DNA from: Halorubrum lacusprofundi ATCC 49239
GTDB taxonomy: Archaea > Halobacteriota > Halobacteria > Halobacteriales > Haloferacaceae
Direction: 5' to 3'
Length of the DNA stretch: 64,000 nucleotides
Assembly (NCBI RefSeq): GCF_000022205.1
Contig: NC_012028.1
Location: 372,001 to 436,000, forward strand
Shown here: positions 14,708-49,880 of the stretch, in pieces
Layout of the letters: each line of letters starts with the position of its first letter
Position numbering within the stretch: the stretch's first letter is position 1
Translations under genes and position numbers: made by a program
The notes under the pieces: model-generated
The model's database searches: none
What the model saw: only the letters and a program-made list of their open reading frames with translations
Told to the model about the DNA's origin: nothing

Positions 14708-15670
14708 TCACCGTGTATCAAGGCGAAGCGGTGAGGCCCGCTCCCAGAGATGATGATGCTCGACACACACCGTAATGAGGTTGTCCAGACGGTTGGCCCG
14801 CTCGAAGTTGACCTCATTCTCGACATCGCCGAACGCACTTAGTGGCCGAATGTGGTGCACGTGAAGCCCTCTCGTGAACTCCTCTCGGTGCGCCTCTTGC
14901 GTCCACTCACAATCCGGCGTCTGGCAGGTGTAGTTATCGCGTTCGAGTGCTTTCTGTCGTTGCTCCTCCCAGTTGTCCCCGTATTCCCGCCACTCGTGGG
15001 CTGGCTGTTCCTTCCAGTTGTAGTTATCTGGGCCAGATGGGCGACCAACCGGCTCGTACCCAGCCGCCCGAATTGCAGCTTGCCAGCCCTCCCAGCGGTT
15101 AAAATAGGGCCGACGCGAAAACTCACCGTGGTCATTCATCTCCTGCGCTGTGGGGGCCTTCCCTAACTCGTCGACAAGCCGGTGAATCTCTTCGAGTAAC
15201 GCTTCATCAGTAATGCGATGGCGCTTGTGAGGGTCGTATCCAGCTGCCTCCAACGCCTCGTTCCAACTTCCAAAGCGATCCTGCGCGATTGTGACCGTGA
15301 ATTTCCCCTTCGAGCGCATTTCGGACGCCGTTGGCGGGGTACCGGTCTCCGTTGCAAGCCGACTGATTTCGTCAAGGATTGCGTCCTCGGAAATCCGGTG
15401 TTGCTTTACCGGCTCATATCCCGCGGACTGGAGCGCCTCCGTCCAGCTGCCAAACCGGTTTTCGTACGTCCCAGCTGAATACGCTCCAACTGTATCCATT
15501 TCTGTGGTCGTCGGTGAACGACCGAACTCGTCTACTAGACGATCTATTTCAGCCAATAATTGTGCTTCGGAGATTCGACGACTATGGCTACTGCTGTGGC
15601 CACCTAGCACGTCCTTGGTGTCAAAGGACTCACCACAGACATCGCAGGTTAGATCACGATTACCCGTCAT
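14708..15670 (-). CDS. HNH endonuclease with three homing-endonuclease-associated repeats
   Basis: 320 residues. An N-terminal C2H2-like finger (CDVCGESFDTKDVLGGHSSS) is followed by three repeats of about 55 residues, each with the pattern LLEEIxRLVDExGxxPTxxEM...GxxFNRFGSWxEALxxAGYEP (about residues 32-85, 93-146, 150-203), a DNA-recognition repeat seen with homing endonucleases. The C-terminal HNH nuclease has CQTPDCEW, HVHHIRPLSAFGD, NLITVCVEHHHLWE. It is a probable selfish or defence nuclease. No intron or intein is visible around it; instead two copies of a GC-rich repeat flank it. Confidence 0.85.
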   Translation of the reverse strand: MTGNRDLTCDVCGESFDTKDVLGGHSSSHSRRISEAQLLAEIDRLVDEFGRSPTTTEMDTVGAYSAGTYENRFGSWTEALQSAGYEPVKQHRISEDAILDEISRLATETGTPPTASEMRSKGKFTVTIAQDRFGSWNEALEAAGYDPHKRHRITDEALLEEIHRLVDELGKAPTAQEMNDHGEFSRRPYFNRWEGWQAAIRAAGYEPVGRPSGPDNYNWKEQPAHEWREYGDNWEEQRQKALERDNYTCQTPDCEWTQEAHREEFTRGLHVHHIRPLSAFGDVENEVNFERANRLDNLITVCVEHHHLWERASPLRLDTR

Positions 15671-15886: not shown

Positions 15887-16786
15887 CTACGCTTCCCACC
15901 ACCGACCGCGCTCGGGGAAGTGAACGGTGCTCCACCCGGTTAGAGCCACGGAGACGCGCCCATTGTACCAGTTCTTCGCCGCTCCGTGAATCCGCACGCG
16001 CTCGCCCTCTTCGATCCAGGGTTGGTCACTCGCAACCCATGACGTCACCTTCGTTTTCCCACTGTCGTCCGCGATTAGCCCGACTTGCGCGATGGCCGGC
16101 GAGTCCGCATCCCAGAGCACCTCGACTCGGCCCTCGATGCTCACCTCTTTGCGATTGACGTTCTCGAGCTTCCCAATGGGAATCACCGTCCCAGGTGCCG
16201 TCTGCAACTCCTCGAACACCCCGACGACCGCACTCGTCAGGTCTTTCCCACCGACGACGGCTTCACCCAGCCGCCGACCAATCGCTGCTCGCGACCAGCC
16301 ATCCAGTTTCTTCGCCAGCCGCATCGACTGCTTGTTCACCGCCGCTAACTGCTCCTGCGTGAGTTCTGCACGAGGATCGCCTCGCTCCGGGTCAGCCATC
16401 GGATTCACGCTCGCCGCCCGCTTCTGGAACTCCACACGCCGCTCAGCGCTCCGCTTCGCTGCGATATCTCGCGTCCGCTTCGCGCGTCCCTCCTGCTGAC
16501 TGAGTTCAGCCTGGGCACTGATGTGCTCCAACTCGGCCTCCCGCGCCTCGATGCGTTCCTCCTGTTCGAGGGTCTTCCCGAACATGTGATCCGGGCCTTC
16601 CTCGACCCGCGCGTCAGGATGGTTGGAATCGACTTTCGCCTGCACTTCCATGTCGACCGTTGCCCGGAACTCCGGCGTCTCGTCGACGACCGGGAACCCG
16701 TCTTCATCGACCGTCTGACCGCCCGCTTTCTCGAATGCCTGTTCATCCACCGTAACGACCTTGCTACTAGAGCTGTTACTTGACAT
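15887..16786 (-). CDS. RPA-like OB-fold DNA-binding protein
   Basis: 299 residues from MSSNSSSSKVVTVDEQAFEK (ATG at 16786). The middle is highly charged and helical (EQEERIEAREAELEHISAQA and KRTRDIAAKRSAERRVEFQK), and the C-terminal 90 residues read like an OB fold (VSIEGRVEVLWDADSPAIAQ, GLIADDSGKTKVTSWVASDQ, GERVRIHGAAKNWYNGRVSV), as in RPA/SSB-type proteins. This family is frequent on haloarchaeal plasmids, probably binding single-stranded DNA. A start at 16960 would run through two strong palindromes and is rejected. Confidence 0.75.
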   Translation of the reverse strand: MSSNSSSSKVVTVDEQAFEKAGGQTVDEDGFPVVDETPEFRATVDMEVQAKVDSNHPDARVEEGPDHMFGKTLEQEERIEAREAELEHISAQAELSQQEGRAKRTRDIAAKRSAERRVEFQKRAASVNPMADPERGDPRAELTQEQLAAVNKQSMRLAKKLDGWSRAAIGRRLGEAVVGGKDLTSAVVGVFEELQTAPGTVIPIGKLENVNRKEVSIEGRVEVLWDADSPAIAQVGLIADDSGKTKVTSWVASDQPWIEEGERVRIHGAAKNWYNGRVSVALTGWSTVHFPERGRWWEA

Positions 16787-16806
16787 TGGTCTCACCAAAG
16801 ACCGAA

Positions 16807-16846
16807 GGCGCGTACGCGCCGACACCGCGATGCTGCTACATCGCGG
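16807..16846 (-). promoter_or_regulatory. Two palindromes between promoter and start of the OB-fold gene
   Basis: GGCGCGTACGCGCC (16807-16820) is a perfect 14-bp palindrome. Next to it CCGCGATG-N6-CATCGCGG (16825-16846) is a perfect inverted repeat, preceded on the minus strand by GGAAAACC. They lie 20-60 bases ahead of the ATG at 16786. They may be operators or leader hairpins, in the same position as the GC palindromes of other genes here. Confidence 0.55.
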
Positions 16847-17156
16847 TTTTCCGACGACACCGACCGACAGAACCATCTGCGCGCTCTCGCTCGCGCCTTC
16901 GCGAGCGCCCCCTTGGGCGCGAGCGAGAGCGCGCCTGCATGAGGTGGCCCCAACCAGCACCGCGCGCCGACCCGCCCGGAGCGAGCGGCCAGCGCATTCC
17001 CCGTTCGCCGCGACGCAACCACGTCCGTCGCGGTCGGCGCAGCCGAGGTCCGGAGGACCCGAACGGGTGAAGCGCTGGCGTCGAGACCAGATTCATTTTA
17101 GCCCGGAACGGGCGCGGGCGGTGCGGAGAGCGCCCGCACGCCCGGAATGGTCGGTC
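16847..17156. other. GC-rich intergenic stretch without a supported gene
   Basis: Very GC-rich, with many GCGC tracts. Open frames exist on both strands but all encode Arg/Pro/Ala-rich text without any conserved pattern, so I regard them as chance. It leads into the repeated element at 17157. Confidence 0.5.
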
Positions 17157-28308: not shown

Positions 28309-28878
28309 CTACTCCTCTAGAAGTGCTACCAACTGGGCGACGTATGGGCTGTTGTCCCAGCTCCGGTGGGGGCTGATCACGCTCAGTAGCGTTCGCGCCT
28401 CCTCGTGGGTCATATGGCCGTTCCGGGCGTAGTCGCAGATGAGCCGCGGTGTCGGGACGATCCGCGGGCCCTGTAGCACGGCGTGGATGAGCGGGAAGTT
28501 CGTTCCACCAAACTCGTCGGTGAGAAAGCCGTCGACGTCGAGCGCGTTCGAGAGGACGATGCCATCAGTTTCGCCGTCATCGAGGCCGAACGTCGGTCGC
28601 GCGTCCGGGGTGTCGTCGCGCGCATATGGATCTTCGACCGTGTAGTGGCCACGGGCCGCGAGGACGTTACTCGCGGCTGCGGCGTGGATGTCCTGATACT
28701 GCGTGATGTCGCGGAGTTCTGCGACTACTTCCGGAGGGACGACCACGTCACAGGAGGTGAGCAGGTATTGGAACGGGTCGGGAACATCGGTACCGATGGC
28801 TGCATCCGCACGGGGCACCGCGAGACTGACGAGCGCACTCGTGTCGGCGACGACTGTTCGCAGTCGTGGACCGCTCAT
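28309..28878 (-). CDS. PIN-domain toxin
   Basis: 189 residues. PIN-like acidic residues: VVADTSALVSLA (Asp near 11), the LDDGETDGIVLSNAL block (about 101-115) and DVDGFLTDEFGG (about 117-128). Its ATG overlaps the stop of the RHH-type antitoxin gene by 4 bases (28875-28878). The C-terminal 40 residues (GHMTHEEARTLLSVISPHRS) are an extension beyond the minimal PIN fold. Confidence 0.75.
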   Translation of the reverse strand: MSGPRLRTVVADTSALVSLAVPRADAAIGTDVPDPFQYLLTSCDVVVPPEVVAELRDITQYQDIHAAAASNVLAARGHYTVEDPYARDDTPDARPTFGLDDGETDGIVLSNALDVDGFLTDEFGGTNFPLIHAVLQGPRIVPTPRLICDYARNGHMTHEEARTLLSVISPHRSWDNSPYVAQLVALLEE

Positions 28879-29243
28879 CGATCGTCGTCGACCGCGGTGT
28901 CGACCGTCGTCACATCCCCATCGTAGACGTCGACGTCATTGGGGGTAGCGAGATCGAGTGGTTCGTCCTCGAGATCTGCTTTGAGGAGGCGGAGTCGCTG
29001 GGCGGTCTCGGCGCCCACCAGTTGTTTCACCGTCTCGAACTCGAGTTGGTCGTCATAGTACTTCGTCGCAACTAATTCCTGGAACGTCTCGCTGTCGGCA
29101 GTGTCTTCGATGTACTCCCGGATAGCATCGACGAGGAGGTCCGTCCGGTCTTTGTCGAAGAGATCGGCGATGGCATCGAGCCGGTCGACGAGATACTCCG
29201 GCGACTGGAAGTGAACCCGTCGGGGATCGTCGCTTGCGCTCAT
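28875..29243 (-). CDS. RHH-like antitoxin paired with the PIN toxin
   Basis: 122 residues. The N-terminal RRVHFQSPEYLVDRLDAIAD and LFDKDRTDLLVDAIREYIED is a ribbon-helix-helix layout (strand, helix, turn, helix). A long acidic C-terminal region likely neutralises the toxin. The perfect palindrome TGTGCAA-GTT-TTGCACA starts 5 bases upstream of its ATG and is the evident operator for autoregulation. Confidence 0.75.
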   Translation of the reverse strand: MSASDDPRRVHFQSPEYLVDRLDAIADLFDKDRTDLLVDAIREYIEDTADSETFQELVATKYYDDQLEFETVKQLVGAETAQRLRLLKADLEDEPLDLATPNDVDVYDGDVTTVDTAVDDDR

Positions 29244-30738: not shown

Positions 30739-31179
30739 TTATGGAGTCTGGAGTTCCCGAACTGGCTTCACGGTGAACGTGTTTGGCTCGCTGGCTGCTG
30801 CTTCTCGTGTGCGCTCCGGCGGTGAGACTGCCGACCGAGTGACTTTGGTGATGAGCTCGTCGCGAACGGTCTCTCGAGGAACGGTAGTCTCGTGCCAGCC
30901 AAGCCGGCTGTCGAAGTGCCGCTTCTGAAACTGCTCGCCGACGTCGTCGACGGCGACGTACTGCGTACGTTTCGTCCCCCACACCTGCTGGGCGACGACG
31001 ACGGCCCCCACCTGTTCGTGAGTCAGTTCGACGAGGACACACTCCACGAGCGCGACGAGCGACGCGTGATTCCGGTCGCTCGGGATCGCCACCTCGAGGT
31101 CCGCCCACGGAGCCTCCCCGTCGGAGTTGGTTGCTGCTTGCTGTACCGTCTGCGTCTGGGTCGTACGTTCCGAAGCCAT
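30739..31179 (-). CDS. Conserved haloarchaeal hypothetical protein
   Basis: 146 residues, MASERTTQTQTVQQAATNSD. The core SLVALVECVLVELTHEQVGA and RTQYVAVDDVGEQFQKRHFD is unlike any enzyme I recognise. It lies downstream of the PrimPol-like gene in the same orientation but has its own palindromic promoter element. Confidence 0.6.
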   Translation of the reverse strand: MASERTTQTQTVQQAATNSDGEAPWADLEVAIPSDRNHASLVALVECVLVELTHEQVGAVVVAQQVWGTKRTQYVAVDDVGEQFQKRHFDSRLGWHETTVPRETVRDELITKVTRSAVSPPERTREAAASEPNTFTVKPVRELQTP

Positions 31180-31253: not shown

Positions 31254-32507
31254 CTACTCGAACCGACCGCCGAATAATCGACTCAACATAGAGGATGACT
31301 CTGACTCAGCACCGTTCTCATTCGCAGTAGAGACGTGCTCGCCCTGGGACTCTTCTTCCCGGCCACGGGTAGCGAGTTCGTCAGTGAGTCGCTCGATCTC
31401 CGCTTCGAGAGCGTCGATGCGCTCGGTTTTCTCCGTGAGTGTCGCCTCGAGTTCGTCGACGCGCTCGCTCAATAGCCGATTCTTCTCGGCTAGATACGCG
31501 CGACTCCGTTCCGAGTCAGCAGCGCCGACGTCTGGAGACGATCCGCCGGGGGTGTCGTCCGCGGTATCGTCGCCGGCGTCCGGGTCGTAGAACTCCGACG
31601 TGGTCGCAATCGCTCGCTCGATGGTCTTCTCCCCGTACGTCGACCCGTCAGCGTAGTGGACCTCGTCCCACTTCTCCCGAAGCAATCCCGACTGCCGGAA
31701 CAGCTGCTTCATCTGCGTCCGGTCGCCACCGGTCCAGAACGCCAGCAGACAACACAGGGCCATATCGGCCTCGGACTGACTGTCGTAGCCGACCGTATTC
31801 CCGTTCCAGAGCCGCTCGAACTTCTCGCCGTTCGACGCGTTTCGCGCTTTCTCGAGGAGGTCCTCATCCTCGAGATCAACGTCGACGTCGGCTGTCCCGG
31901 TCGCCGTTGACTGGTCGTCAGTGCCATTCCCCGGCTCGGACTCGGATGCTGTGTCACGCTCGGTGTCCTGGACGTACTCGCGGTGAATCGCTGTGAGCGC
32001 GTCCTGTCGACGTGCAACGCGACCGAGAGTCTCATCGACGTGGTCGCCAGTGACGGTGAAAAAACGTGCCGTGTCGTACAGTTCGACGCTCCCGCGACGG
32101 TTCCGTCCTTCGGGAAGTTCGCCGGTGATCAGGACGTGATAGCCGGTACCGGACGGCGATACCTCCGTATAGGAGTCGAGTCGCTTGATGATGTCTTGTG
32201 CGGCGTCGTCGACGTCGCCCGTTTCGGGATCGCGGCAGTCGTCCAGGTCAACGCCGACGATGGGATCGTCGTCAGTGAATACGAACCCGACACCATCAGC
32301 GTGCTCCGTCTCGGTGTATTCGAGTGCTGTCTCGAAGGCATCCCACGTCTCGGGGTCTGTCGACGACGCGAATCCTCCTGTCCCTGGCGTCACCGGTACT
32401 TTCGTCGGTTTACCGTCGCGTGTTTCTTCCCGCCAGCACACCCACTGCTCGCGTTCGCGTAACGTCTCCGGGCACTCCGAGACAGCAAGTGGTGGCTCAT
32501 ATTCCAT
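31254..32507 (-). CDS. PrimPol-like primase-polymerase with C-terminal coiled coil
   Basis: 417 residues from MEYEPPLAVSECPETLRERE. The N-terminal half carries AEP-type primase motifs: GVDLDDCRDP (metal-binding acidic residues, about 92) and SPSGTGYHVLI (about 130). The middle (GEKFERLWNGNTVGYDSQSE, LLAFWTGGDRTQMKQLFRQS) resembles the helix-bundle domain of NrS-1-type phage polymerases. The end (about 330-395) is a heptad-rich coiled coil. It probably primes or initiates plasmid or element replication. Iteron-like repeats lie directly upstream, and it follows the conjugation genes. Confidence 0.75.
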   Translation of the reverse strand: MEYEPPLAVSECPETLREREQWVCWREETRDGKPTKVPVTPGTGGFASSTDPETWDAFETALEYTETEHADGVGFVFTDDDPIVGVDLDDCRDPETGDVDDAAQDIIKRLDSYTEVSPSGTGYHVLITGELPEGRNRRGSVELYDTARFFTVTGDHVDETLGRVARRQDALTAIHREYVQDTERDTASESEPGNGTDDQSTATGTADVDVDLEDEDLLEKARNASNGEKFERLWNGNTVGYDSQSEADMALCCLLAFWTGGDRTQMKQLFRQSGLLREKWDEVHYADGSTYGEKTIERAIATTSEFYDPDAGDDTADDTPGGSSPDVGAADSERSRAYLAEKNRLLSERVDELEATLTEKTERIDALEAEIERLTDELATRGREEESQGEHVSTANENGAESESSSMLSRLFGGRFE

Positions 32508-32650
32508 CCTCTTCCCTCCCAATGAGCACCCAGTGAGTCACCTCACTCTCTACATCACTATCCTGATAGAAGTCCTCGCGACCGGTGGGCTGTCCAGTAC
32601 TCTGTCCAACGGGTGCTACCCGTTGTATACTAGTTGGTTTTGACCCGTGG

Positions 32651-32735
32651 TTTGCCCTGAACACTACTCCAGTCTTGCGATTTTCCCCTGAACATTCATC
32701 AATTCTTTGACCTGAACGCTTACTTTGCCCTGAAC
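32651..32735. repeat. Four iteron-like repeats, consensus TTTGCCCTGAAC
   Basis: TTTGCCCTGAAC (32651), TTTCCCCTGAAC (32682), TTTGACCTGAAC (32706) and TTTGCCCTGAAC (32724) are direct repeats with at most two differences, at spacings of 31, 24 and 18 bases. They lie in an A/T-richer gap ahead of the PrimPol-like gene (start 32507). They could be a replication-origin iteron set or operator sites for the same gene. Confidence 0.6.
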
Positions 32736-32864
32736 AAATCATGCTACAATCCCGGAATCGGGGGTTAGGGTGGTTATAGCGGGGTGATTGGGATATCGGT
32801 GATTGTTCAGAGTTGATCTGTGTGCCACCCCATTGAATTTTACCCATAATTCTGATAGTTCTCA

Positions 32865-35800
32865 TTATTCAAGGAACTGTGATCCCGCTGGCGTCAGGTC
32901 GACACCGGTGTAGACAGTCACCAGATCGTCGCCGTCTCTGACCCGATCATTCTCATACTCGACGACGTTCGCGAGCTTTCGACCGAACCAACTCGCATTT
33001 GTCCCCTCAATATCGTGCTGGTCAGTCCAGGCCGAGTACGCCTGAAACAGCGTTTCCTTTGGCACCTGGGCTCCCTCAGCTTCTCTGATGTACATCGCTG
33101 CGAACGCCTCGATGCCGTCACCACTCGGATCGATCTCCACCGACCCATCTGAAGGTGCGGTAGACTCCGTCGATGGAGTCTCCTCACCGGAATCCATCGA
33201 TATTGTGGCCTGTGCGTGCTCACTGGTGGGGGCGTCCGGCCACAAGTCCTCCTCGTCTGGGCTCTCGGAGAGTGTATACGATTCTCCCTGTTGGAATACC
33301 GTAGGAGCACCGTCCTCCGGAAGCAGCAACACGACGTAGCTGTCACGCGAATAGTCCGCATCTGGGAGTTCGACATCGGGAATGAACGGTCGCTTGATCG
33401 GCGTCCACTCGGCCTTGAACTCGTCTTTCGAGTCAAAGACGCGGGTCTCTCCGGGTTTATGGACGGTGTACTGCCCGGTTTCGTGGTCGTAACTGTAGTA
33501 GGCCGGGACGCCGTCTTTCGAGAGCGCCCCCTCATCTGGAACGCGGGCGAATTCCGTCTCGCCGTCTGACAGCACACGCTCACCATCGTCGCGCGTCCAG
33601 ACTGTCCGATTTGTGTCGGCCGTCCGGGGCCGAACGGCGGTTACCCCACCGTGGGCGGTCGCCCCACCGCCGAAGGTCACGATCTCATCGCAGTTGTAGA
33701 ACTGCTCGGTGCCGTCCGCCCGCTCTCGCAGCGGCGGCGAGAGAATATTCTCGAGTCGCGTCGCCCACTCGGTCTCAGGATCGCCAGGGCGGACGACGAA
33801 GAGCGGGACGCGATCTGCGTCGTGCGCTCGTTTGAGGTTCTGCAAGACTTTCGCGGGTCGGTCAGGCGTCGTCGTCTCGGCCTCGATGTTGAACACCACG
33901 TCGTGGTCTGGGTGCGTCGCGGTGGCGTCGGGTTGCTCGCTCCCGTCCTGTTCGAGAATATCAACACTGAACCCACGCTCGGTGAGCGCCGTCTCAGTAT
34001 CCATGAGTACAGCATCGTGGCTCATTCCTCCTGCCGATCTAGCAGTCCCCGTTTCGGGCTGCACCTCCGTTTCCCCGTCGTCGGAGAGCCGCGCCACAAT
34101 CTCGCCGTCCTGTAACTCGACATCGATTAACCGCGACGCGTCACGCACGTCCGGTAAGTCCTCGTACTCGTAGTCGATCTCAGCCTGACTATTCTCGAGG
34201 CGTGTCGAGAGTTCCTCGTCGATGGCGACGATGTCCACCCAGCCGTTTGCCTCGCGGGCGTTCTCTCGGATTTGAACGGCACGAATCGCCTCGGCCATCG
34301 TCTTGTCCAGAATCTGTGTCGGATTCGCTGCCTCGTTGGCGTCGCTGTAGATGAGGTTCTGCATGATCTCCGCGTCGGTAAGCGGGTCGGTTCCATACCG
34401 GTCTAAACTCGCCTCGATGATGTCGTCGACCGAATCGGCCGACCGCAGTGGTGGATACGGCGGGAACGTTCGGAGGAGCACTGGCTCGGAGTACCGACCA
34501 CCCTCCAGTGGGAGTTTCGTCCAGGCCTGGTACTGGTCGGTCGAGATGAGGTCTTCGGCCGTGTAGTCGCGAAAGCGCTTCATCAAGAGCTGGGCGTCGT
34601 CGACGTCGTTCACGGAGAAGGCGATGAGGTTGTCGCAGTTGTTCTGCATCGCCTTGCGCGTGTCCTCACCGAACTGTGAGGGATACTGCGACGACAACGT
34701 CACGGAGAGGCGCATCGACCGGGCACGAGCGAGCATCGACTCGATGTCGAGGTTGTCGCTCGCGATGTCGTCGAACTCGTCACAGAGCACGAAGTACGGA
34801 TCTGGATCGGTATCGCGTTCGTACGACCGTTGTTGGATGGCGCTCCAGAGGTTTCGCATCACGCCGAGTGTGACCATCTTCTTGATGTCCGTGTTCTCGA
34901 CGGGCGTACGGACGATGACGATCCGGTCGTTGTCGATGATATCACGGAAGTCGATGGTACTCTCGCGGTGGGCAATGATCCGCCGGATGACCGAGTTTTC
35001 GACCCACGACTTGATGCGTTTGAGCAGCGGCCGGACGGTTTCGTCGTCCATCCGCGCGATTTCGAGACAGAACTCCCTAACGTAGGGATCGTCGACGTCG
35101 AGGGCGAACTCTTCGCGGCGCTCAGCGTGCAACAGCGTGAAGTACATATCGATCACCGAGAACGGCTGGTCGGACTGCATCATTGCCCGGCCCATCGACT
35201 CGGTGATCGACTCCATGTTGATCCCCCAGTACTCGTCCGTATCGAAGATCGCTTTGAGGTTCTCGATGCGATTCTCGATCTCGTTTTCACGCTCTTCTTC
35301 GGTTTCGCAGTCGGGAACTTCGAGGAAGTTCAGCCCGACCGTCTTGTCGTGTTCGGATGAGCCGGGTTCGATCCAGACAACATCGTCGAGCCGGTCTTCA
35401 GGGAGCATCCGCAGGAGTTCCCGAGAGTCACGGCCCTTCGGGTCGAAGTAGACGAATCCGTACCCTGAATACGCCCACTGGACCATCATGTTCAATAGTT
35501 CCGTCGTTTTCCCGTAGCCGGTGGTGCCGGTGATCCAGATGTGCCGGAAGAGCGACTCAAACTGGAGCGGTGCTTCACGGAACCCTCGTTGGGCGTCCTC
35601 GTCGTAGCCGATCCACAGCGGCGATGGTGCTGTATCGACGCCCGATTCGAGCATCTCGCGGATGTATGAGCCGGCGACAGTGCCCTCATTTTGCGTCTCG
35701 GTGATGACGGGCTTGCTCCCGACGTAGTCCGTGTTCTGTTCGGTGATGTCGTACGTTTCGCCAAGCAGTGACTGCGGGCCCGGACTGGTCTCAGCCATCG

Positions 35801-35894
35801 GGCCTGCGTCACTCTCTGCTGACTCGTCCGAGGCAGCGTCTGCATTCGACGCAGCGTCTTGGTCGTCGTCGCGACCGAAGAAGCGATCAAACAC
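32865..35894 (-). CDS. VirD4/TraG-like coupling ATPase for conjugation
   Basis: 1009 residues from a GTG at 35894 that overlaps the stop of the upstream gene by 8 bases. Walker A GTTGYGKTTELL (about 122), Walker B YFVLCDEFDD (about 370), and the TraD/VirD4-type text SMRLSVTLSSQYPSQFGEDT are visible. The coupling protein is a hexameric pump that brings DNA to the secretion channel. Unusually, about 500 C-terminal residues follow the ATPase core, with a possible nuclease- or restriction-like segment (DVVFNIEAETTTPDRPAKVL) and an acidic end. No N-terminal membrane helix is seen after this start, so it may be recruited by partners. Confidence 0.8.
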   Translation of the reverse strand: MFDRFFGRDDDQDAASNADAASDESAESDAGPMAETSPGPQSLLGETYDITEQNTDYVGSKPVITETQNEGTVAGSYIREMLESGVDTAPSPLWIGYDEDAQRGFREAPLQFESLFRHIWITGTTGYGKTTELLNMMVQWAYSGYGFVYFDPKGRDSRELLRMLPEDRLDDVVWIEPGSSEHDKTVGLNFLEVPDCETEEERENEIENRIENLKAIFDTDEYWGINMESITESMGRAMMQSDQPFSVIDMYFTLLHAERREEFALDVDDPYVREFCLEIARMDDETVRPLLKRIKSWVENSVIRRIIAHRESTIDFRDIIDNDRIVIVRTPVENTDIKKMVTLGVMRNLWSAIQQRSYERDTDPDPYFVLCDEFDDIASDNLDIESMLARARSMRLSVTLSSQYPSQFGEDTRKAMQNNCDNLIAFSVNDVDDAQLLMKRFRDYTAEDLISTDQYQAWTKLPLEGGRYSEPVLLRTFPPYPPLRSADSVDDIIEASLDRYGTDPLTDAEIMQNLIYSDANEAANPTQILDKTMAEAIRAVQIRENAREANGWVDIVAIDEELSTRLENSQAEIDYEYEDLPDVRDASRLIDVELQDGEIVARLSDDGETEVQPETGTARSAGGMSHDAVLMDTETALTERGFSVDILEQDGSEQPDATATHPDHDVVFNIEAETTTPDRPAKVLQNLKRAHDADRVPLFVVRPGDPETEWATRLENILSPPLRERADGTEQFYNCDEIVTFGGGATAHGGVTAVRPRTADTNRTVWTRDDGERVLSDGETEFARVPDEGALSKDGVPAYYSYDHETGQYTVHKPGETRVFDSKDEFKAEWTPIKRPFIPDVELPDADYSRDSYVVLLLPEDGAPTVFQQGESYTLSESPDEEDLWPDAPTSEHAQATISMDSGEETPSTESTAPSDGSVEIDPSGDGIEAFAAMYIREAEGAQVPKETLFQAYSAWTDQHDIEGTNASWFGRKLANVVEYENDRVRDGDDLVTVYTGVDLTPAGSQFLE

Positions 35895-37014
35895 GATCCT
35901 TCCCTCCTTGTCTAGCCGATCGATCGCCAGAACGGTGTCTGGCTGCTGTGTCGTCGTACTGATCCGTATCAGCAGGAACCCGATCGCCACGCTGGGTGTA
36001 GCGCCAGTCGATGTTCGGCGTCTCGATCTCGTTGTTCGGGATGTGGGCGACGCCGGCGAGTTCGTCGACGGTCATGATCATCCGGCGGTCGGTCCACTCG
36101 CGGTCGGCCATCCGGGCGACGTGCTGGCGGAGTTGGCTCGCACGCTTGCTCTCTTTCCGATGCCACACTGGTGTATCGTCGAGGCCCTGTTCGGTCATGG
36201 CGTTGTAGTACTTTCTGAACATCCCGGCGACCCCACGGGCACGCGCTTCGGCTTCGTTCTTGTCCGTGGAGGCTGCGAGGACGCGGATGTTGACGTGGAA
36301 CGCTTGCTGGCCACGCTGCTGTTCGATGGTTTTGGCGGCCTGCTTGTCCTTCTGGCTCGCTGGCCGCGTTTGGGGATCGAGCCATCCAACTGATGTTCCT
36401 TGCCGGAGTGCGTGGGCGAGGTCGTCGACGCTGTTGTGCTTGAACCGGTCGCCGTCCGTCCAGGACTGTTTTGCGGGCCGGAAGACGACTTGCGTGACGA
36501 CCGTGCTGTCGTCGAGTGAGAGCATCTCGCTCGTGATTTCGCCGTAGGGGTCCGTCGCCCATTCGTCGCTGTTGTGGTGACGAATCGGGTAGTACGGGAG
36601 CTTCTCCATCTCCAGCCACGCACCAGCGACGTACTCGTCGGGGTCGATAACGGGGAAGGCAGCTCCACCGTCGACGGGGAACACTTCGCTGTTGGCGTAG
36701 TTGTTGCCGACGCGGCGGCGGAACTTGTCGGCGGCCGCCTCGGTCGCGGCGTGCATGAAGAATTTGACCTTCCCCTCGTCGAACCAGACCTCGAAGGAGT
36801 GGTGGTCGCTCGTGTTCTTCCCTCGGAAGTTCGTCGTCACGTCGTGGACTGACTGGAGCAGGCCGGCGCCGTCGACGACGCCCTGATTCTCCTTGAACGG
36901 CCGAATCCGAAGCAGAATCCCCGGCGCGCTCTCAGGAGGCTGGACGAGTGGCTCGTCGATCGGGAGCTGTGTGGCGTCGTACTGCGGGTCGCCACCCAAT
37001 AACCCATCAAGCAT
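35887..37014 (-). CDS. Conserved conjugation-module protein of unknown function
   Basis: 375 residues (MLDGLLGGDPQYDATQLPID). It has a folded alpha/beta look (FEVWFDEGKVKFFMHAATEA, FHVNIRVLAASTDKNEAEAR) and a disordered C-terminus. It sits between the VirB4-like and VirD4-like ATPase genes with 8-base overlaps on both sides (37007-37014 and 35887-35894), so it is almost certainly a component of the transfer machine. I recognise it as co-conserved with haloarchaeal TraC-type genes. Confidence 0.7.
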   Translation of the reverse strand: MLDGLLGGDPQYDATQLPIDEPLVQPPESAPGILLRIRPFKENQGVVDGAGLLQSVHDVTTNFRGKNTSDHHSFEVWFDEGKVKFFMHAATEAAADKFRRRVGNNYANSEVFPVDGGAAFPVIDPDEYVAGAWLEMEKLPYYPIRHHNSDEWATDPYGEITSEMLSLDDSTVVTQVVFRPAKQSWTDGDRFKHNSVDDLAHALRQGTSVGWLDPQTRPASQKDKQAAKTIEQQRGQQAFHVNIRVLAASTDKNEAEARARGVAGMFRKYYNAMTEQGLDDTPVWHRKESKRASQLRQHVARMADREWTDRRMIMTVDELAGVAHIPNNEIETPNIDWRYTQRGDRVPADTDQYDDTAARHRSGDRSARQGGKDRV

Positions 37015-40000
37015 CGTCGCTCACCTCGTCGTCGGACTGGCGTGCGTCCTCGCCGCTGTCAGCGAGCGCAGACGACTCCGCCGTGCCGTTTCGCTGTGCG
37101 TTCGCAACAACTGCGTCGACGATCTCCGCCTCGGAGAGTTCTCCGTCAAGCAGTCGCGTGGCTTCTTGCTCGCAGAGGTCGTAGCGGCTGGTCAGCGCGT
37201 TCATCTGCGCTTCGTTCTCCACGAACGCGTCGAAGTCGACCAATTCCTCAGACTGCTCGCTGATGGCCTGCTGGATGAACTCCTGATCTGCTGGTTCGTA
37301 GTCAATGACGCGCTTCTCGAACGGATCCGCAACGATGTGCAGTGGGTAGGTCCCGTGTTCTTCGACACGGACGAGTGCCTGACTGTAGCCGAGGTCCTCC
37401 TTCCCAGCGTCGGCACCACGGACGTACTGTCGCTGCTCGCGCGTCAGTCCGATCTTGTCGGCCGTCTCGTCGTCCAGGTCCGGCAGTTTGTGGAAGACCT
37501 TGATCGGGCACATCCCGAGAATCTTCTCAGCCTGGTCGGTCTCGTAGAACTCTTGGGCCGTCTGGGAGAGCAAGACCATCCGGAGGCCAGCGTGGCGCTG
37601 GTGGCGAAACGCCGTTTCGAGGAAATCGAGATTCGCCTGGTCCTCGAAGAGATAGTGCGCCTCGTCGATGGCGAGTTCGACGTTCCGGTCGGTCTTCTTC
37701 GCCTGCTGGTAGACCGTCGAGAGGAGCAGTTGCATCAGGAACGTCTGGCGGTCGATCCCTGACGCACTGCCTTCGATCTGTCCGAGGTCGATGTAGACGA
37801 CTTTGTTATCGCCCTCGAGGATGTCGACCTCCGAGCGCTCCGCGAGGTTGTCGTACGACCCACCCTCACGGAACGGCTGGAACGCAATTGCGAGTTCATC
37901 GGCGTACGCTGCGGCGCGTTCGCGAGCGGATTCGGACGCGGCGATGTTGTGCTCGTCGGGGTTCTCCGCGATATCGGCGAGAATCCGATGGATGTCGGTC
38001 ATCGTCGGCGAGTTTTCTGGGGTGTGCGTCGTGACGTCGTCCTCGACGACGCCTGCCTGGCGGTACGTCTCGTCGATAACGTAGGAAAGAACGCCCGTTT
38101 CGGTCCCGAGGTCGATGTCGCGAGCGGTCAGGAAATTCTCCAGAACGGCGTACACTTCGTCTTTCTTCGCCGACAGCGGCGAGATGCCATCATCGGCGTC
38201 GAGGACTTCCTGCGGCGTTTCACGGATCTCCAGCGGATTCAGCTGTGTGTCGCCACCCACGGAGATCGTCTTCGCGTTCAGCGCGTCGGCGATGCCTTTG
38301 AATCCGCCGACCGGATCGATCATCACGAGCATCGTGTCCTGCTGGCGTTTCATCATCCGGAGGTGGCGCATGATGTCGCCGAACGTCTTCCCGGCGCCGG
38401 GCATCCCGACGACGAGTTCGCTGTGGCCGGTTTCGAGGTCCCACGGGTTGATCTGGACGGGTGAGCCGTTGTGGCCATGGTAGCCGTATTCGACGCCCTC
38501 GTCCATCATCATGTAGTTCGAACTGAAGGGGAACATCGCACCCACCGCTTGATTCGTCAGCGTCGACATTCGGTCGCGACCGAGTTCGTTCGCGCCGAGC
38601 GGTGAGACAGTCGCCAACCCCTTCTCCTGCCAGCGATTTGCGACCTTCAGTGTGCAGTTCGCTGGGGCGTCCTTGACGATGGAGCGGAGACGCGTCGTCT
38701 GGGTATCGAGTTCCTGCTTGCTCTCGGCAGAGAGGCGGATGAAGACGCCGCCACGGTAGAACGACGCCTTGTTCGCGCGGACGAGCGACCGCATGAACTT
38801 CCCACGGTCGATATCTTTCTGGAGGTCCTCGGCTTTCAGGCTGTTCGAGTCGTGCTGATTGACCTTCAGATCCGAAATCCAGTCGGCCATCATGTCTTCG
38901 GCCGATTGACTGTCGAAGGGGTCGAGATGGATGCTGATGTCCGTGTTTAGGTCGGTCTCTAGCAGGAGGCGCTCGAATATCCCGTCAGCTGGCTCTTCGG
39001 GGAACTGCTCGATCCAGAACGTCCGGACGTACGTGTCGTCGTTGATGACGGCATGGGTCGCCTCCCAATCGACCGTCGACGGTGCGATCACCGACTGGTG
39101 GAGCGTCGACGTATCGTCGAGCCGATCTGCAGCGGACACATCGGCCGTGTCGTCTGAACCTGTCTCTTCACCGCTGTCGTCCATCGCGTCGACGACGTCG
39201 TCCGGGTCGGGGGTTGTCGGTACGTCGTCGCTGATGCCGTGGGCGACGACCGGGAACGTGCCGATTGCGTCAGTGATCTCGCCGTACTCTTCGGTGTGTC
39301 CCGTCCAGTATTCCTTCGTCACGCGGGTGAGGTCGTAAGCGTCGACTGGGCTCATCGAGCAGCGATAGAGCGACGACCCACCGCGGCGGAGCTGTCCCAG
39401 CCGTGATTCCAGCTTGTCTTCTTTGAGGCGGTCGCGTTCGGCGTCCGAGAGGCCGTCTGATTGGAACCGCCCAAACACACGACCCAGGACAGGGATGTCG
39501 GCGAGGTAGGCCAGGACGCTATCGCCGGTTTCGTTGAGTTGCTCGACGTCAGCGTCACGAACGGCGGTGATGATGTAGTATTCGCGGATGGTCGTAGCCT
39601 CGGAGTCGATGTCGCCGTTCTGATCCGTGTTGGTCGTAATGTACTCGTCGAGCAGGCGCTTGAGGACGGGCCGTGATCTGACGTCGGCGTCGCCGAGACG
39701 CCGCTGGTGGTCGCGGACAACGTCGTCCTGGTCGACCTCGCGGCTGGTGATGTAGAACTTCACCGGGAAATCGATGGTCGCGTTGACGAACTCGGAGAGT
39801 GAATCCACGGCTTTCGCCCACGCGTCGTCGTCTTCGAGGGCCATGTTCGCTGGCTCGACTTTCATCGCCCCAACAAGCGCGCCGTCTGACCGCTCGATGG
39901 CGTGCGGGAAGACCTGACCAACACGGGTTAGGTAGCGGACCTCGCTGTTGTCTTCGCCGTGGGTGTACTCCTTGTTCTTGACTGCCCAGCCGAGCCGTGC

Positions 40001-40264
40001 AGCCAACCACTCGGTAAGCCATAGGTAGGACGGTTTGACCTTGTGGAGGACGCCGAGGACGAGCCCGAGCATGAGGCCGAACCCGAGGACAGGAATCGTG
40101 AAGGTGGCTGGAACCAGTGCTGCGCCGATGAGCGTGACGAACGCCACGCCGACGAACAGCATGATCTCGCCAATCGTGTACCCCTGGAAGAAGGCGGTCG
40201 TGCCGCCGAGTGACTGATGGATGCGTCGGGCGCTGTACTCCTGGTCGTCAGTGTTTGTACTCAT
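37007..40264 (-). CDS. VirB4/TraC-like ATPase with fused N-terminal membrane domain
   Basis: 1085 residues. Two membrane helices near the start (IGEIMLFVGVAFVTLIGAAL, TIPVLGFGLMLGLVLGVL) and following text resemble a PrgI/VirB3-like domain fused to VirB4. Walker A VVGMPGAGKTFGD is near residue 618 and Walker B NVELAIDEAHYLFED near 860. LRMVLLSQTAQEFYETDQAE is typical of the family. It powers assembly and transfer in type IV secretion. It overlaps the next gene by 8 bases; the previous gene ends 6 bases upstream. Confidence 0.85.
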   Translation of the reverse strand: MSTNTDDQEYSARRIHQSLGGTTAFFQGYTIGEIMLFVGVAFVTLIGAALVPATFTIPVLGFGLMLGLVLGVLHKVKPSYLWLTEWLAARLGWAVKNKEYTHGEDNSEVRYLTRVGQVFPHAIERSDGALVGAMKVEPANMALEDDDAWAKAVDSLSEFVNATIDFPVKFYITSREVDQDDVVRDHQRRLGDADVRSRPVLKRLLDEYITTNTDQNGDIDSEATTIREYYIITAVRDADVEQLNETGDSVLAYLADIPVLGRVFGRFQSDGLSDAERDRLKEDKLESRLGQLRRGGSSLYRCSMSPVDAYDLTRVTKEYWTGHTEEYGEITDAIGTFPVVAHGISDDVPTTPDPDDVVDAMDDSGEETGSDDTADVSAADRLDDTSTLHQSVIAPSTVDWEATHAVINDDTYVRTFWIEQFPEEPADGIFERLLLETDLNTDISIHLDPFDSQSAEDMMADWISDLKVNQHDSNSLKAEDLQKDIDRGKFMRSLVRANKASFYRGGVFIRLSAESKQELDTQTTRLRSIVKDAPANCTLKVANRWQEKGLATVSPLGANELGRDRMSTLTNQAVGAMFPFSSNYMMMDEGVEYGYHGHNGSPVQINPWDLETGHSELVVGMPGAGKTFGDIMRHLRMMKRQQDTMLVMIDPVGGFKGIADALNAKTISVGGDTQLNPLEIRETPQEVLDADDGISPLSAKKDEVYAVLENFLTARDIDLGTETGVLSYVIDETYRQAGVVEDDVTTHTPENSPTMTDIHRILADIAENPDEHNIAASESARERAAAYADELAIAFQPFREGGSYDNLAERSEVDILEGDNKVVYIDLGQIEGSASGIDRQTFLMQLLLSTVYQQAKKTDRNVELAIDEAHYLFEDQANLDFLETAFRHQRHAGLRMVLLSQTAQEFYETDQAEKILGMCPIKVFHKLPDLDDETADKIGLTREQRQYVRGADAGKEDLGYSQALVRVEEHGTYPLHIVADPFEKRVIDYEPADQEFIQQAISEQSEELVDFDAFVENEAQMNALTSRYDLCEQEATRLLDGELSEAEIVDAVVANAQRNGTAESSALADSGEDARQSDDEVSDDA

Positions 40265-46761: not shown

Positions 46762-48162
46762 ATGCGAATCGAGTTCGACGACGGAACCCTCCTGCTCCGC
46801 GATGCACCGGATAACGTCCCTTACGCGGAGTGGGACGACCGCGTCGACGAGTACCGCACCCAAGCGTATCGATATCGAGCGCTCCTCGAATGGGCCGGTG
46901 CATGGTCGGACGGAGACGAACAAGCAACGCTGCACGACGGCTTCGCTCCCGCGCTCGAAGACGCCGCTCGGGCCTACCCCGATCTCGACCTCACGCCAGC
47001 GCTCCACATCGAACCACGAGACTACCAGCAGGCCGCCCTCGACGCCTGGATCGACCACGACCGCCGGGGCAGCGTCGTCCTCCCCACGGGCAGCGGGAAG
47101 ACGTTCCTCGGCCTCCAAGCCATCGCTGACGCCGGCGTCAGCGCGCTCGTCGTCACGCCGACGATCGATCTGATGAATCAGTGGCACGCCACGCTCACCA
47201 ACGCCTTTGGTGAGCAGCTCCCGGAGCCGGTCGGCGTCCTCGGCGGTGGCAGCCACAACGTCACCGCGATCACCGTCACCACCTACGACAGCGCCTATCG
47301 GTACATCAACGAGTATGGCGACCAGTTCGGGCTACTCGTCGTCGATGAGGAACACCACCTGCCAGCGCCGACCTACCGTCAAATCCCTGAGATGACCATC
47401 GCGCCCTATAGGTTGGGACTGACCGCGACCTACGAGCGCCCCGACGGGAAACACGAACTGCTCGAAGAGCTCCTCGGGCCAGTTGTCTACCGCGAAAACG
47501 TCGACGAACTCGCCGGGGAGTATCTCAGCGAGTACGAGACGATCCACATGTCGGTCGACCTCACGGCCGACGAGGGCGAGACGTACGACGAGGAGTACCA
47601 GCTCTACCGCGATTACGTTGACAGCCACGAGTTCGACCTCTGGAAGGAGGACGGCTATGCGGAGTTCCTCAAACGCACGTCCTACGACCCGCAAGGGCGG
47701 CGGGCGCTCATCGCCAAGCAACGTGCCGAGCGAATCGCCCGAACCGCCGAAAAGAAACTCGACACGCTCGACAATCTCATCAAACGGCATCACGATGACC
47801 GCGCCATCATCTTCACCGCGAACAACGACTTCGCCTACGACATCTCTCAAGAATTCATCGTCCCCTGCATCACCCACCAGACCAAGACTGACGAACGCAC
47901 CGAGATTCTGGAACGGTTCCGGACGGGGGAGTACTCGATGCTGGTGACTTCGCAGGTGCTTGACGAGGGGATCGACGTGCCTGCGGCGAACGTCGGGATC
48001 ATCCTCTCGGGGAGTGCCTCGAAACGCCAGTACGCCCAGCGGCTCGGCCGGATATTGCGGCCCACGGATGATCGCCAACCGGCACGCCTCTACGAAATCA
48101 TCACGGACGAGACGATGGAGACCTATGTTTCCCAGCGCCGCCGTGAGGGGGTGAGTGCGTAG
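46762..48162 (+). CDS. xpb: XPB/Rad25-type DNA helicase
   Basis: 466 residues. The N-terminal damage-recognition-like region is followed by superfamily-2 motifs: PTGSGKTFLGLQAI (about 110), LLVVDEEHHLP (about 194), RLGLTATYERPDG (III), IIFTANNDFAYDIS, TSQVLDEGIDVPAA and QYAQRLGRILRP (VI). Archaeal XPB works with the nuclease Bax1 to open and cut damaged DNA. Its stop overlaps the GTG of the next gene by one base (TAGTG), so the pair is coupled. Confidence 0.9.
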   Translation: MRIEFDDGTLLLRDAPDNVPYAEWDDRVDEYRTQAYRYRALLEWAGAWSDGDEQATLHDGFAPALEDAARAYPDLDLTPALHIEPRDYQQAALDAWIDHDRRGSVVLPTGSGKTFLGLQAIADAGVSALVVTPTIDLMNQWHATLTNAFGEQLPEPVGVLGGGSHNVTAITVTTYDSAYRYINEYGDQFGLLVVDEEHHLPAPTYRQIPEMTIAPYRLGLTATYERPDGKHELLEELLGPVVYRENVDELAGEYLSEYETIHMSVDLTADEGETYDEEYQLYRDYVDSHEFDLWKEDGYAEFLKRTSYDPQGRRALIAKQRAERIARTAEKKLDTLDNLIKRHHDDRAIIFTANNDFAYDISQEFIVPCITHQTKTDERTEILERFRTGEYSMLVTSQVLDEGIDVPAANVGIILSGSASKRQYAQRLGRILRPTDDRQPARLYEIITDETMETYVSQRRREGVSA

Positions 48163-49520
48163 TGCTGACCGCGAACCTCGCCCGGTCACGCACGACCGAC
48201 GAAGAAGTCAAACCGTTGTTCATCGATCCGACTGATGGACGCTATCGTGAGACGGCACGGGAGCTCATCCAACTGTTCGATGATCATCTCGGCGAGCCGA
48301 AAGGCGACCTCGAGGACTCAATTGACGAGTTGACCGTCGCAGATACCGACTACAAAATCGTCCAGGGACTCGCGAAACTCCTGAAAGACGAGTGCGAGTT
48401 CGAGGTCATCGCCTCGGTCGAACCGCGTGAGATCCGCCAGCGCCTGTTCGAGAAAGCCAACAAGCGGTATCCGATCGTCCGCCAACCGACGCTTGGCGAG
48501 GACACACAGAAACTGGAAGTATACAGCTGGGTTGCAGATGAGTTGGGGATCTCACTCGAAGACTGCTATCGGGGAATGTACGCCGACCTGGAGGCCAACA
48601 AGCGACTTGTCCGAATCGGGACGCGGACCGCCGAGCAATACGCCAGTGACGGCGATTCATCGACGGCGACGACGACGCTGACCGGCAGTAGTGCCGGAGA
48701 ATACGAACACACGGACCTCACCGTGGACTGGCTCCTGACCCGGTACAATCTCGCACTTGCCCAAGCAGTCCTCTACGACGCGACGGAGATGCGGATTCGC
48801 GTCTGGGACCACTTTGGGACGGTGTTCAGCTACGTGAAGCTGTTCGGGCTGATGCACCGTATCTACCCGATCGACGCCGACGGCGAGCGCGTTGGAAGTA
48901 CGGATCAGGCTGCCGGCTACGAAGCCGTGCTGGACGGCCCAGCATCGCTGTTCTCCCAATCGCAGAAGTATGGGATCCGGATGGCGAACTTCCTCCCAGC
49001 GTTACCGCTCTGTGACCGGTGGGAGATGGCTGCCACGATTCTGATCGACGAAACGACCGGCGAGACGCGGCAATTCACGCACGACCACACCGAAAACCTT
49101 GATTCGCACTACAGTGCTGGCGAGCACTTCGATAGCGACATCGAGCGGACGCTCGCGCAGAAATGGGAGCGCTCGAACACGGACTGGGAACTCGTGCGCG
49201 AGGACGACATCTTTGACCTGGGTGCCCAAGTGATGATCCCCGACTTCGCGATCGAACATCCAGACGGTCGGCGGGCAATCCTCGAAATCGTCGGCTTCTG
49301 GACGCCCGAGTATCTGGAGTCAAAGATATCGAAGATCCGGCAGGTGGAGGCTGACAATTTCGTGTTGGCTGTCTCAGAGCAATTGGATTGTGCGAGTGAG
49401 GAGTTCGGAGGGGTCGCTGATCGAGTATTGTGGTTCAAAACCGGGATTCACGTCTACGACGTAGTCGAACTGGCCGACACAGTTGCTATCCCGTCCGAGA
49501 CAGCGTCTGCTTCCGAGTAG
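48162..49520 (+). CDS. bax1: Bax1-like nuclease, DUF790 family
   Basis: 452 residues with a GTG start at 48162. Family text includes LTANLARSRTTDEEVKPLFI at the start, RYNLALAQAVLYDATEMRIR and FSYVKLFGLMHRIYPID in the middle, and a C-terminal PD-(D/E)xK-like nuclease core (MIPDFAIEHPDGRRAILEIV followed by GFWTPEYLESKISKIR). Bax1 binds XPB and cleaves DNA at bubbles. The pair is flanked by 42-bp inverted repeats (46634 and 49781), as if it were a mobile unit. Confidence 0.85.
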   Translation: MLTANLARSRTTDEEVKPLFIDPTDGRYRETARELIQLFDDHLGEPKGDLEDSIDELTVADTDYKIVQGLAKLLKDECEFEVIASVEPREIRQRLFEKANKRYPIVRQPTLGEDTQKLEVYSWVADELGISLEDCYRGMYADLEANKRLVRIGTRTAEQYASDGDSSTATTTLTGSSAGEYEHTDLTVDWLLTRYNLALAQAVLYDATEMRIRVWDHFGTVFSYVKLFGLMHRIYPIDADGERVGSTDQAAGYEAVLDGPASLFSQSQKYGIRMANFLPALPLCDRWEMAATILIDETTGETRQFTHDHTENLDSHYSAGEHFDSDIERTLAQKWERSNTDWELVREDDIFDLGAQVMIPDFAIEHPDGRRAILEIVGFWTPEYLESKISKIRQVEADNFVLAVSEQLDCASEEFGGVADRVLWFKTGIHVYDVVELADTVAIPSETASASE

Positions 49521-49601
49521 GGTTTCTGGCTGGACGACCGATGTCTACATCGTATCGTTGAACTTGCTGCGGGGTCGGTGGCGAGTTCACTCATAACGAG
49601 G

Positions 49602-49761
49602 GTATTCACGAGGGGGCCATAGAATAGTTCACATACCCGTCGTACGGCGGTTTTGGTTAAGAGTAGTGCCAGTTTTTGACCCAATTTTCGGCACTCAAAC
49701 AGGTAATCGCTCCTCTCGACCGACCATGAGAATCATTCTATGCCATCTTCAGAGTATTCAC
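49602..49761. mobile_element. Degenerate MITE related to the 1069-bp IS
   Basis: The left end GAGGGGGCCATAGAATAGTT (49610) and the right end, reverse complement GATGGCATAGAATGATTCTC, resemble the IS end GAGGGTGTCATAGAATAGTT. The flanks GTATTCAC (49602-49609) and GTATTCAC (49754-49761) are an 8-bp direct repeat, a likely target duplication (9 bp with one mismatch). The interior, about 140 bp, has no gene. It is older than the other copies because its ends have diverged. Confidence 0.6.
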
Positions 49762-49780
49762 TGGAAATTGTGGTGTGTCA

Positions 49781-49821: not shown

Positions 49822-49880
49822 TACGGTCGTTTCGCAACTCTACGCAAGAGCGTGACTGATTGGTTCCCGGCGAAAAGCGT

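Follow-up and report, generated by a model that had tools for sequence, protein, structure and literature searches.

The DNA analysed here, a 64-kb stretch referred to as the window, contains a 357-bp gap in which short direct repeats lie between two genes, and the question that it raises is what these repeats mark and which protein reads them. The original prediction regarded them as iterons beside an initiator gene, and the gap as a possible replication origin. The following features were located in the gap:

32508..32864, minus strand: gene-free gap from the stop of the coupling ATPase gene to the start of the PrimPol gene, the proposed cis-acting site
32724..32735, minus strand: iteron 1, GTTCAGGGCAAA on the PrimPol strand
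32706..32717, minus strand: iteron 2, GTTCAGGTCAAA
32682..32693, minus strand: iteron 3, GTTCAGGGGAAA
32651..32662, minus strand: iteron 4, GTTCAGGGCAAA
32804..32815, plus strand: weak fifth iteron copy in opposite orientation, with 2 mismatches in 10

The four direct copies of TTTGCCCTGAAC inside the gap were confirmed; those at 32651-32662 and 32724-32735 are exact, and those at 32682-32693 and 32706-32717 carry one mismatch each. They are spaced by 31, 24 and 18 bp, and all four lie within 85 bp. The bare repeat count over the 64-kb window is unremarkable (6 occurrences of the pattern at up to 2 mismatches against 3.0 expected, a number reached by 15 of 100 shuffles); the clustering of four copies within 85 bp is significant. 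Across 200 dinucleotide shuffles of the gap, the most copies of any 12-mer were three, against the four observed, and when the 12-mer was searched at up to one mismatch in the 3.69-Mb genome, four of the five sites were in the gap. The description of the gap as gene-free and A/T-richer also held: its G+C content is 48.7%, compared with 58.3% for the window, and plasmid phalar01 (strain DL31), to which 89% of a 24-kb query aligns at 98.6%, carries an identical gap in which no gene is annotated. The contig of the window (525,943 bp) is probably a large plasmid, since the largest of the three contigs of the genome is 2.7 Mb.

The genes on both sides of the gap are the following:

30739..31179, minus strand: 146-aa protein that follows PrimPol, present on 7 of the 12 plasmids compared
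31254..32507, minus strand: NrS-1-type PrimPol, 417 aa, with an AEP and a helix-bundle domain
32865..35894, minus strand: coupling-protein (TrwB/TraG-type) ATPase, 1009 aa, start according to the phalar01 annotation
35887..37014, minus strand: 375-aa T4SS operon protein with no Pfam match, conserved with class I coupling ATPases
37007..40264, minus strand: VirB4-type ATPase of the T4SS operon, 1085 aa
40271..44111, minus strand: three more conserved genes of the T4SS operon (398, 358 and 586 aa)

The primase-polymerase gene that had been recognised downstream of the gap by its motifs is an NrS-1-type PrimPol according to both Pfam and PDB matches. Its match to PF22763, the NrS-1 helix-bundle domain, scores 107.6 bits against a cutoff of 27.9, its best PDB matches are NrS-1 primase structures (E about 1e-38), and the AEP motifs DLD, PSGTGYH and YDT are present. 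In the 417-aa protein, which ends in a coiled-coil-like tail, the Pfam search detected no helicase domain. The conjugation genes reported beside the gap are likewise there, in the form of the T4SS genes upstream. The ATPase that adjoins the gap matches Pfam TrwB (PF10412), TraG-D (PF12696) and T4SS-DNA_transf (PF02534), all over their cutoffs. Among the genes searched, none was identified as a relaxase, the enzyme that starts transfer in bacteria.

Several other genes of the window were noted. An OB-fold protein related to replication factor A is encoded at 15887-16960, 14 kb from PrimPol, and all 12 of the plasmids compared encode a homologue at about 3-16 kb from PrimPol. An HNH endonuclease with homing-endonuclease-associated repeats and a zinc finger is encoded at 14708-15670, and two adjoining small genes at 28309-29243 are PIN-type toxin-like and ribbon-helix-helix antitoxin-like by eye, with no family match over cutoff. 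Genes for a helicase (XPB/ResIII type), a DUF790 protein, an SNF2 helicase, PglZ and an Eco57I-type methylase are clustered at 46762-63964, a group that resembles a BREX-type defence cluster.

To place the locus in its family, we combined the window with the best 80 of 104 relatives of the PrimPol, which are recorded as haloarchaeal, and obtained 81 loci. In 64 of these, PrimPol is preceded, at a distance of 271-447 bp, by the stop of an ATPase gene whose product ends in a winged helix; by tblastn, the winged helix is adjacent in four further loci and interrupted by another gene in one, and the other 12 lie at contig edges, are rearranged or belong to a different lineage. When 10-mers were counted at up to one mismatch on both strands, at least four copies were found in 53 of the 64 gaps, three in 7 and two in 4, and ten mononucleotide shuffles per gap never gave more than three. 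Two gaps (L064 and L076) showed no clear repeat despite the winged helix. PrimPol matches were present in 134 plasmid records. In all of 12 complete plasmids, the plasmid's own repeat forms a single cluster, which lies at the ATPase-PrimPol gap, and VirB4, the ATPase core and PrimPol are each encoded on all 12 of the plasmids compared; the T4SS gene order of the window is kept on W08, W11 and W12, the compared plasmids with a class I ATPase. Searching plasmids with the gap of the window returned 20 records, and the three inspected comprised two full loci and one with a decayed PrimPol (L182). Partial PrimPol matches were obtained in 428 phage records, all below 60% identity and none covering 80% of the query. 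Judged by sequence comparison, the gap and its flanks are a widespread haloarchaeal locus, composed of a conjugation ATPase gene, a repeat-bearing gap and a PrimPol gene, and this conservation across haloarchaea makes it likely that the iteron-like sites beside the PrimPol and conjugation genes are functional. A literature search, which covered mainly journals open without subscription, returned no earlier description of such a locus.

The repeats themselves are of several types. Type A, TGTTCAGGGCAA, occurs in the window and in 11 other loci, with a spacing that is nearly always 18/24/31. The consensus of type B is TGTCCACGCA; type C, TGTTCCACCCA, has three direct and two inverted copies; the consensus of type D is TGTTACGGCAA, and several further types exist. 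Among 19 distinct consensuses, position 2 is G in all 19 and position 3 is T in 18.

Which neighbouring protein the repeat sequence follows was analysed in 62 loci with a repeat consensus, for which the consensus seeds were set per type after inspection of the de novo repeats; seven loci with truncated or frameshifted proteins were dropped to give 55, and 48 were left after removal of near-duplicates. In these 48 dereplicated loci, the partial Mantel correlation between repeat and winged helix given PrimPol was 0.72 (p 0.0005, the permutation floor), a value that joint inheritance can inflate, as the winged-helix coding region lies directly beside the repeats; that between repeat and PrimPol given the winged helix was -0.11 (p 0.98). 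Among the type C and D loci, 24 of 28 have a PrimPol that is 80-86% identical to that of the window together with an ATPase of a different class (about 30% identical), while the PrimPols of the 11 other type A loci are only 70-81% identical to it. PrimPol was discarded as the favoured iteron binder, as the repeat type did not follow it once the winged helix was accounted for.

The 17 class I loci separate the parts of the ATPase. The identity of the winged helix is 0.80 within type A, 0.81 within type B and 0.51 between A and B, whereas that of the ATPase core is 0.83, 0.86 and 0.82, and that of PrimPol 0.76, 0.82 and 0.77, respectively; the correlation with the repeat is 0.93 for the winged helix, 0.17 for the core and 0.08 for PrimPol. 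As the identity drops between the two types in the winged helix and not in the core or PrimPol, the winged helix and the repeats appear to act as one exchangeable cassette. We also predicted the repeat from the nearest reference winged helix in 36 further sequences (those of the anchor scan described below and of plasmids with a readable winged helix, many of them near-identical to or the same as reference loci), and in 33 the predicted repeat was present and none was better; the predictions were right in 12 of the 15 sequences with a winged-helix identity below 95%, and the three failures were L190, L192 and L213. Identical repeats were also found with winged helices whose identity goes down to 37%. 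As far as co-variation of sequences can tell, the repeat follows the C-terminal winged helix of the ATPase and not PrimPol or the ATPase core. The idea of iterons beside their initiator therefore stands in part: the repeats do adjoin PrimPol, but their likely binder is the ATPase on the other side, as indicated by the co-variation and by the P4-type fold described below.

The same result bears on the possibility that the array is a parS-like partition site, or serves maintenance in another way that has nothing to do with the adjacent genes. Repeats that are clustered once per plasmid would suit such a site; the repeat sequence, however, follows the winged helix of the neighbouring ATPase, and in the four annotated loci with wide flanks no gene next to the gap is annotated for partition, so that we consider this explanation very improbable.

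The ATPase was next analysed by structure prediction (AlphaFold2), in which the full-length model had a mean pLDDT of 58.6, that is, moderate confidence. Two of its predicted domains are of particular importance for the gap:

33741..34031, minus strand: predicted PD-(D/E)XK nuclease-fold (Hjc-like) domain, ATPase residues about 622-718
32889..33122, minus strand: C-terminal winged helix of the P4 origin-binding/RFX type, about residues 925-1002, the proposed iteron reader

In the model, residues about 91-500 align with coupling proteins, VirB4 and HerA, and the structural matches of the motor include the L. pneumophila T4CC (Z 10.7) and TrwB (Z 8.9). Pfam FtsK_SpoIIIE reached only E 0.11 in the ATPase of L059, the best fold matches being T4CP, VirB4 and HerA. 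Residues 922-1009 match the DNA-binding domains of RFX1 (Z 12.6) and RFX5 (Z 12.2), and the winged helix matches the phage P4 origin-binding domain 1ka8 with Z 9.4 over 80 residues; in Foldseek, the full-length model retrieved RFX1 first (E 8.9e-4) and TrwB next (E 2.7e-3). According to these models, the RFX and P4 origin-binding domains would be the nearest structural analogues of the reader domain. Pox_D5 was over cutoff in the class II ATPases of L005 and L072 and below cutoff in that of the window. A second winged helix-like part, ORC/MarR-like with Z up to 8.9, was noted at residues about 515-613 (window 34056-34352).

A fold comparison was needed for the nuclease-like domain because the sequence searches were unconvincing: in the ATPase of the window it gave no Pfam match and no PDB match below E 0.5, and chance-like Pfam matches were obtained in up to 2 of 16 members (best E 0.015). 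When modelled by itself (mean pLDDT 52.3, with about 60-78 in the core blocks), the domain retrieved Hjc first both in Foldseek (probability 1.00, E 8.5e-3, with no match below 0.001) and in VIA-align (Z 8.9), and most of its high-ranking matches are, judged by their titles, nucleases of the same or a related fold. Within the full-length model, the Hjc match begins at about residue 622 with Z 7.9 and is weak in Foldseek (E 0.41). The secondary-structure order fits an alpha-beta-beta-beta-alpha-beta core in both models, at moderate confidence. P50-D51, E66-x-E68, K77 and N are invariant in 16 of 16 aligned sequences; the putative active site thus has ExE where (D/E)xK is usual, with E at the position of the usual lysine. 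The domain is 50-56% identical between class I and class II ATPases, compared with about 21-28% for the motor cores. From these models we predict that the coupling ATPase carries a nuclease-fold domain. The nuclease part is present on 11 of the 12 plasmids (absent in W07), and the winged helix lies upstream of the anchor on 11 of the 12 (not in W09, and as a truncated remnant in W07).

Between the repeats and PrimPol, three further elements were identified:

32626..32640, minus strand: conserved anchor AAACCAACTAGTATA, a candidate PrimPol priming site or promoter
32607..32625, minus strand: hairpin CAACGGG-tagca-CCCGTTG adjoining the anchor
32633-32637 (CCAAC) and 32606-32610 (GTTGG), read on the minus strand: outer inverted repeat

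The sequence AACCAACTA was found at up to one mismatch on the PrimPol side of the repeats in 60 of 64 gaps; the anchor is absent in L066 and has two changes in L071, L072 and L074. A TATA-like stretch and G-rich/C-rich arms come after it. CCAAC pairs with the downstream GTTGG in most repeat types, and both arms are altered, to CCGAC and GTCGG, in L077/L078 and the L071/L072/L074 group; the type B loci are without the second arm of the inverted repeat. A scan that started from the anchor gave 33 exact AAACCAACTAGNATA sites in 24 of 145 genomes, and the reversed control gave none. From the 32 sites retrieved, which leave out that of the window and include two at contig ends (L197 and L205), 30 have PrimPol within 400 bp, 26 a winged helix and 31 at least three repeats; one extended anchor per plasmid was found in 12 of 12 complete plasmids. 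The reverse strand of the anchor contains TTGGTT, similar to the NrS-1 priming motif TTTGGTTA (PMC8718748), which we regard as a hint only, because recognition by the NrS-1 enzyme is described as flexible and another site as stronger (PMC8718748).

Solitary arrays, composed of an anchor, repeats and the inverted repeat, were observed at L185 (G003:C2 near 185877) and L200 (G136:C2 near 572592). Neither a coupling ATPase nor PrimPol was found beside them, and they could be relics or hitch-hiking transfer tags.

The position of the anchor also allows it to be viewed as a promoter element (AACCAACTA followed by GTATA), with the repeats as operators at which either the ATPase, by its winged helix, or a different regulator acts on the promoter of PrimPol. 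The TATA-like stretch of the anchor, whose distance from the PrimPol start varies little (106-151 bp in most loci), and the location of most repeats upstream of the anchor are consistent with this, but the leader would be about 100 nt long. A leader of about this length is unusual for haloarchaea. The exact anchor is, moreover, no general promoter, with its 33 sites in 145 genomes, 30 of 32 beside PrimPol and one per plasmid in 12 of 12, and simple autoregulation needs no type-specific repeats matched to the winged helix of a DNA pump. Operators as the main role of the array therefore seem improbable to us.

As regards the replication origin that was predicted originally, the alternative has the form of a vegetative origin, at which the iterons recruit the winged helix of the ATPase (or PrimPol) for theta replication and the ATPase motor replaces the SF3 helicase of the P4 and pRN1 initiators. 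The resemblance of the winged helix to the P4 origin-binding domain fits such an origin, and repeats, a hairpin and a primase together recall P4, RSF1010 and pRN1 (PMC4234260). The cumulative GC-skew minimum lies at most 1 kb from the gap in 3 of 12 plasmids (W02, W03 and W13), the site is below the median of the skew curve in 11 of 12, and the skew jump at the site has a mean rank of 0.71-0.78 among all positions. The skew amplitudes are small, however, several of the 12 plasmids share T4SS regions and are hence not independent, the gap and the Orc1 gene are on average about as far from their closest skew extreme (0.13 and 0.12 of plasmid length, respectively), and two plasmids, W04 and W10, have the minimum within 2.2 kb of Orc1 instead.

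Other initiators argue in the same direction. The window was said to have no Orc1/Cdc6 gene, and no match was indeed obtained within it, but several lie elsewhere on the same 525,943-bp contig. Orc1/Cdc6 was over cutoff on all 14 plasmid records tested (of 134) and on the contig of the window, compared with 3 of 14 control genomes. The original prediction had named the lack of a replication peak together with an origin elsewhere on the replicon, with its own initiator, as evidence against it; these genes on the contig weaken the vegetative reading, and the weak skew signal near the gap in some plasmids speaks on the other side. Diverged PrimPols also occur in T4SS operons without such repeats (L080, L081 and L092): the gene lies 27-29 bp after VirB4 in L080 and L081, and about 0.7 kb after VirB4, without a comparable array, in L092, which belongs to the genome of the window (C1:210001-230000). 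Finally, one strain has four type A arrays (L209-L212), two of which share a plasmid; under copy-number control by iterons, such an arrangement would be at a disadvantage. We regard a vegetative origin as doubtful, and as less likely than an origin of conjugative transfer. What remains of the original claim is origin function as such, best read as serving transfer or transfer-coupled replication; its vegetative form is weakened by Orc1/Cdc6, by the repeat-free PrimPol lineage and by the multiple arrays.

Some of these loci deserve separate mention. The four type A modules of genome G090 (L209-L212) are distributed over contigs C2 and C3, two per contig. Besides a TrbL/VirB6 gene, the L092 region encodes a coupling ATPase in convergent orientation; no winged helix or nuclease domain was recognised in this ATPase. 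A gene with a Cas12f1-like TNB domain was noted at 1384-2553 of the region. The PrimPol paralogue in the genome of the window, at C1:218425, was considered as a second iteron origin and rejected, as no comparable array lies beside it. On W07 (NZ_CP095399.1, about 72400-78900), a T4SS motor without nuclease and winged helix is followed by a different gene with primase-like motifs (read by eye), and PrimPol with type A repeats lies apart from the T4SS, beside the truncated winged-helix remnant. This plasmid suggests that T4SS loci can swap primase modules.

The gap is most likely an origin of conjugative transfer at which PrimPol would prime. The co-variation of repeat and winged helix, the P4-type fold, the nuclease-fold domain and the conserved anchor suggest that it is where the coupling ATPase processes the DNA. 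We estimate at roughly 0.6 the probability that the repeats are binding sites of the winged helix of the ATPase and the gap a cis-acting transfer-processing site, in effect an origin of transfer. Binding of the repeats by the winged helix is inferred from the co-variation and the predicted fold, and nicking and the start of transfer may take place at the gap. In the proposed mechanism, several ATPase subunits would dock on the repeats via their winged helices, and the nuclease-fold domain of the same ATPase could nick or cut the nearby DNA. The TrwB/HerA-type motor would then load and, as expected from its family, pump DNA to the VirB4-containing channel, while PrimPol would prime the replacement or complementary strand in the donor, the recipient or both. 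The constant partner of PrimPol would be the conserved anchor and, in most types, the inverted repeat between the iterons and its gene. The repeat sequence, which changes together with the winged helix, would be the address that pairs one pump with one plasmid.

A more far-reaching version, which we consider tentative and somewhat less probable than the site assignment itself, is that this is a start of transfer free of a relaxase: an ATPase with its own DNA-binding domain and nuclease would open a matched array at the 3' end of the gene that encodes it, and PrimPol would prime at the adjacent conserved hairpin. The locus would then be both the transfer origin and the origin of transfer replication, the repeat and winged helix its exchangeable specificity cassette, and L185 and L200 hitch-hiking tags.

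The proposed site can be compared with several known systems. The alpha protein of phage P4 carries an SF3 helicase on the same chain. Its winged helix binds origin repeats before unwinding and priming, and its primase is Toprim-type (PMC4234260). The locus described here is similar in having a winged-helix origin-binding domain of predicted same fold (1ka8, Z 9.4), but its motor is that of a coupling protein, its AEP primase is encoded by a separate gene, and no SF3 helicase was found here. With pRN1 of Sulfolobus and NrS-1 it shares an AEP PrimPol with a helix-bundle domain, whereas the PrimPol of the window is without the helicase and winged-helix parts. The pRN1 protein is described as having a C-terminal winged helix, and its origin as a stem-loop at the 3' end of the replication gene, without iterons in the account given in PMC4234260; the gap, in contrast, has iterons.

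Streptomyces TraB with its clt sites may be the nearest working analogue. TraB is a hexameric conjugative pump that reads 8-bp clt repeats via its C-terminus (PMC12857230, PMC5365140), and the likeness would consist in the pump ATPase of a conjugative element, short cis repeats and a C-terminal DNA-recognition part, which is suggested here by the predicted winged helix and the co-varying repeats. Unlike TraB, which is FtsK/SpoIIIE-type and works without a T4SS, the ATPase here is by its matches TrwB/HerA-type, is encoded in a VirB4-containing operon, has a predicted extra nuclease-fold domain and has a PrimPol partner. In pR1SE-like vesicle plasmids, repeats of 25 bp or more that precede ORF6 or directly follow ORF25 were proposed as possible replication origins, and ORF25 is an ATPase likened to VirB4 and packaging ATPases (PMC10818511); by description alone, those repeats are longer than the ones studied here, and the passages on them describe no PrimPol and no matching to a winged helix. 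The archaeal conjugative plasmids pNOB8 and pT33-3 are reported to encode ATPases that resemble VirB4 and VirD4, and to have no recognised relaxase (PMC12857230), features that they share with the present locus.

According to a 2025 T4SS review, no relaxase has so far been identified on the archaeal conjugative plasmids discussed (PMC12857230), which raises the question of how DNA is chosen and opened for transfer in archaeal plasmids. The locus described here is a concrete, family-wide candidate for the start of archaeal plasmid DNA transfer, and evolution seems already to have made natural specificity swaps in it. If the proposed reading is true, the cassette of repeat and winged helix would decide which plasmid each pump moves, and it would provide a computable tag for mobilisable archaeal DNA as well as a specificity rule for vectors.
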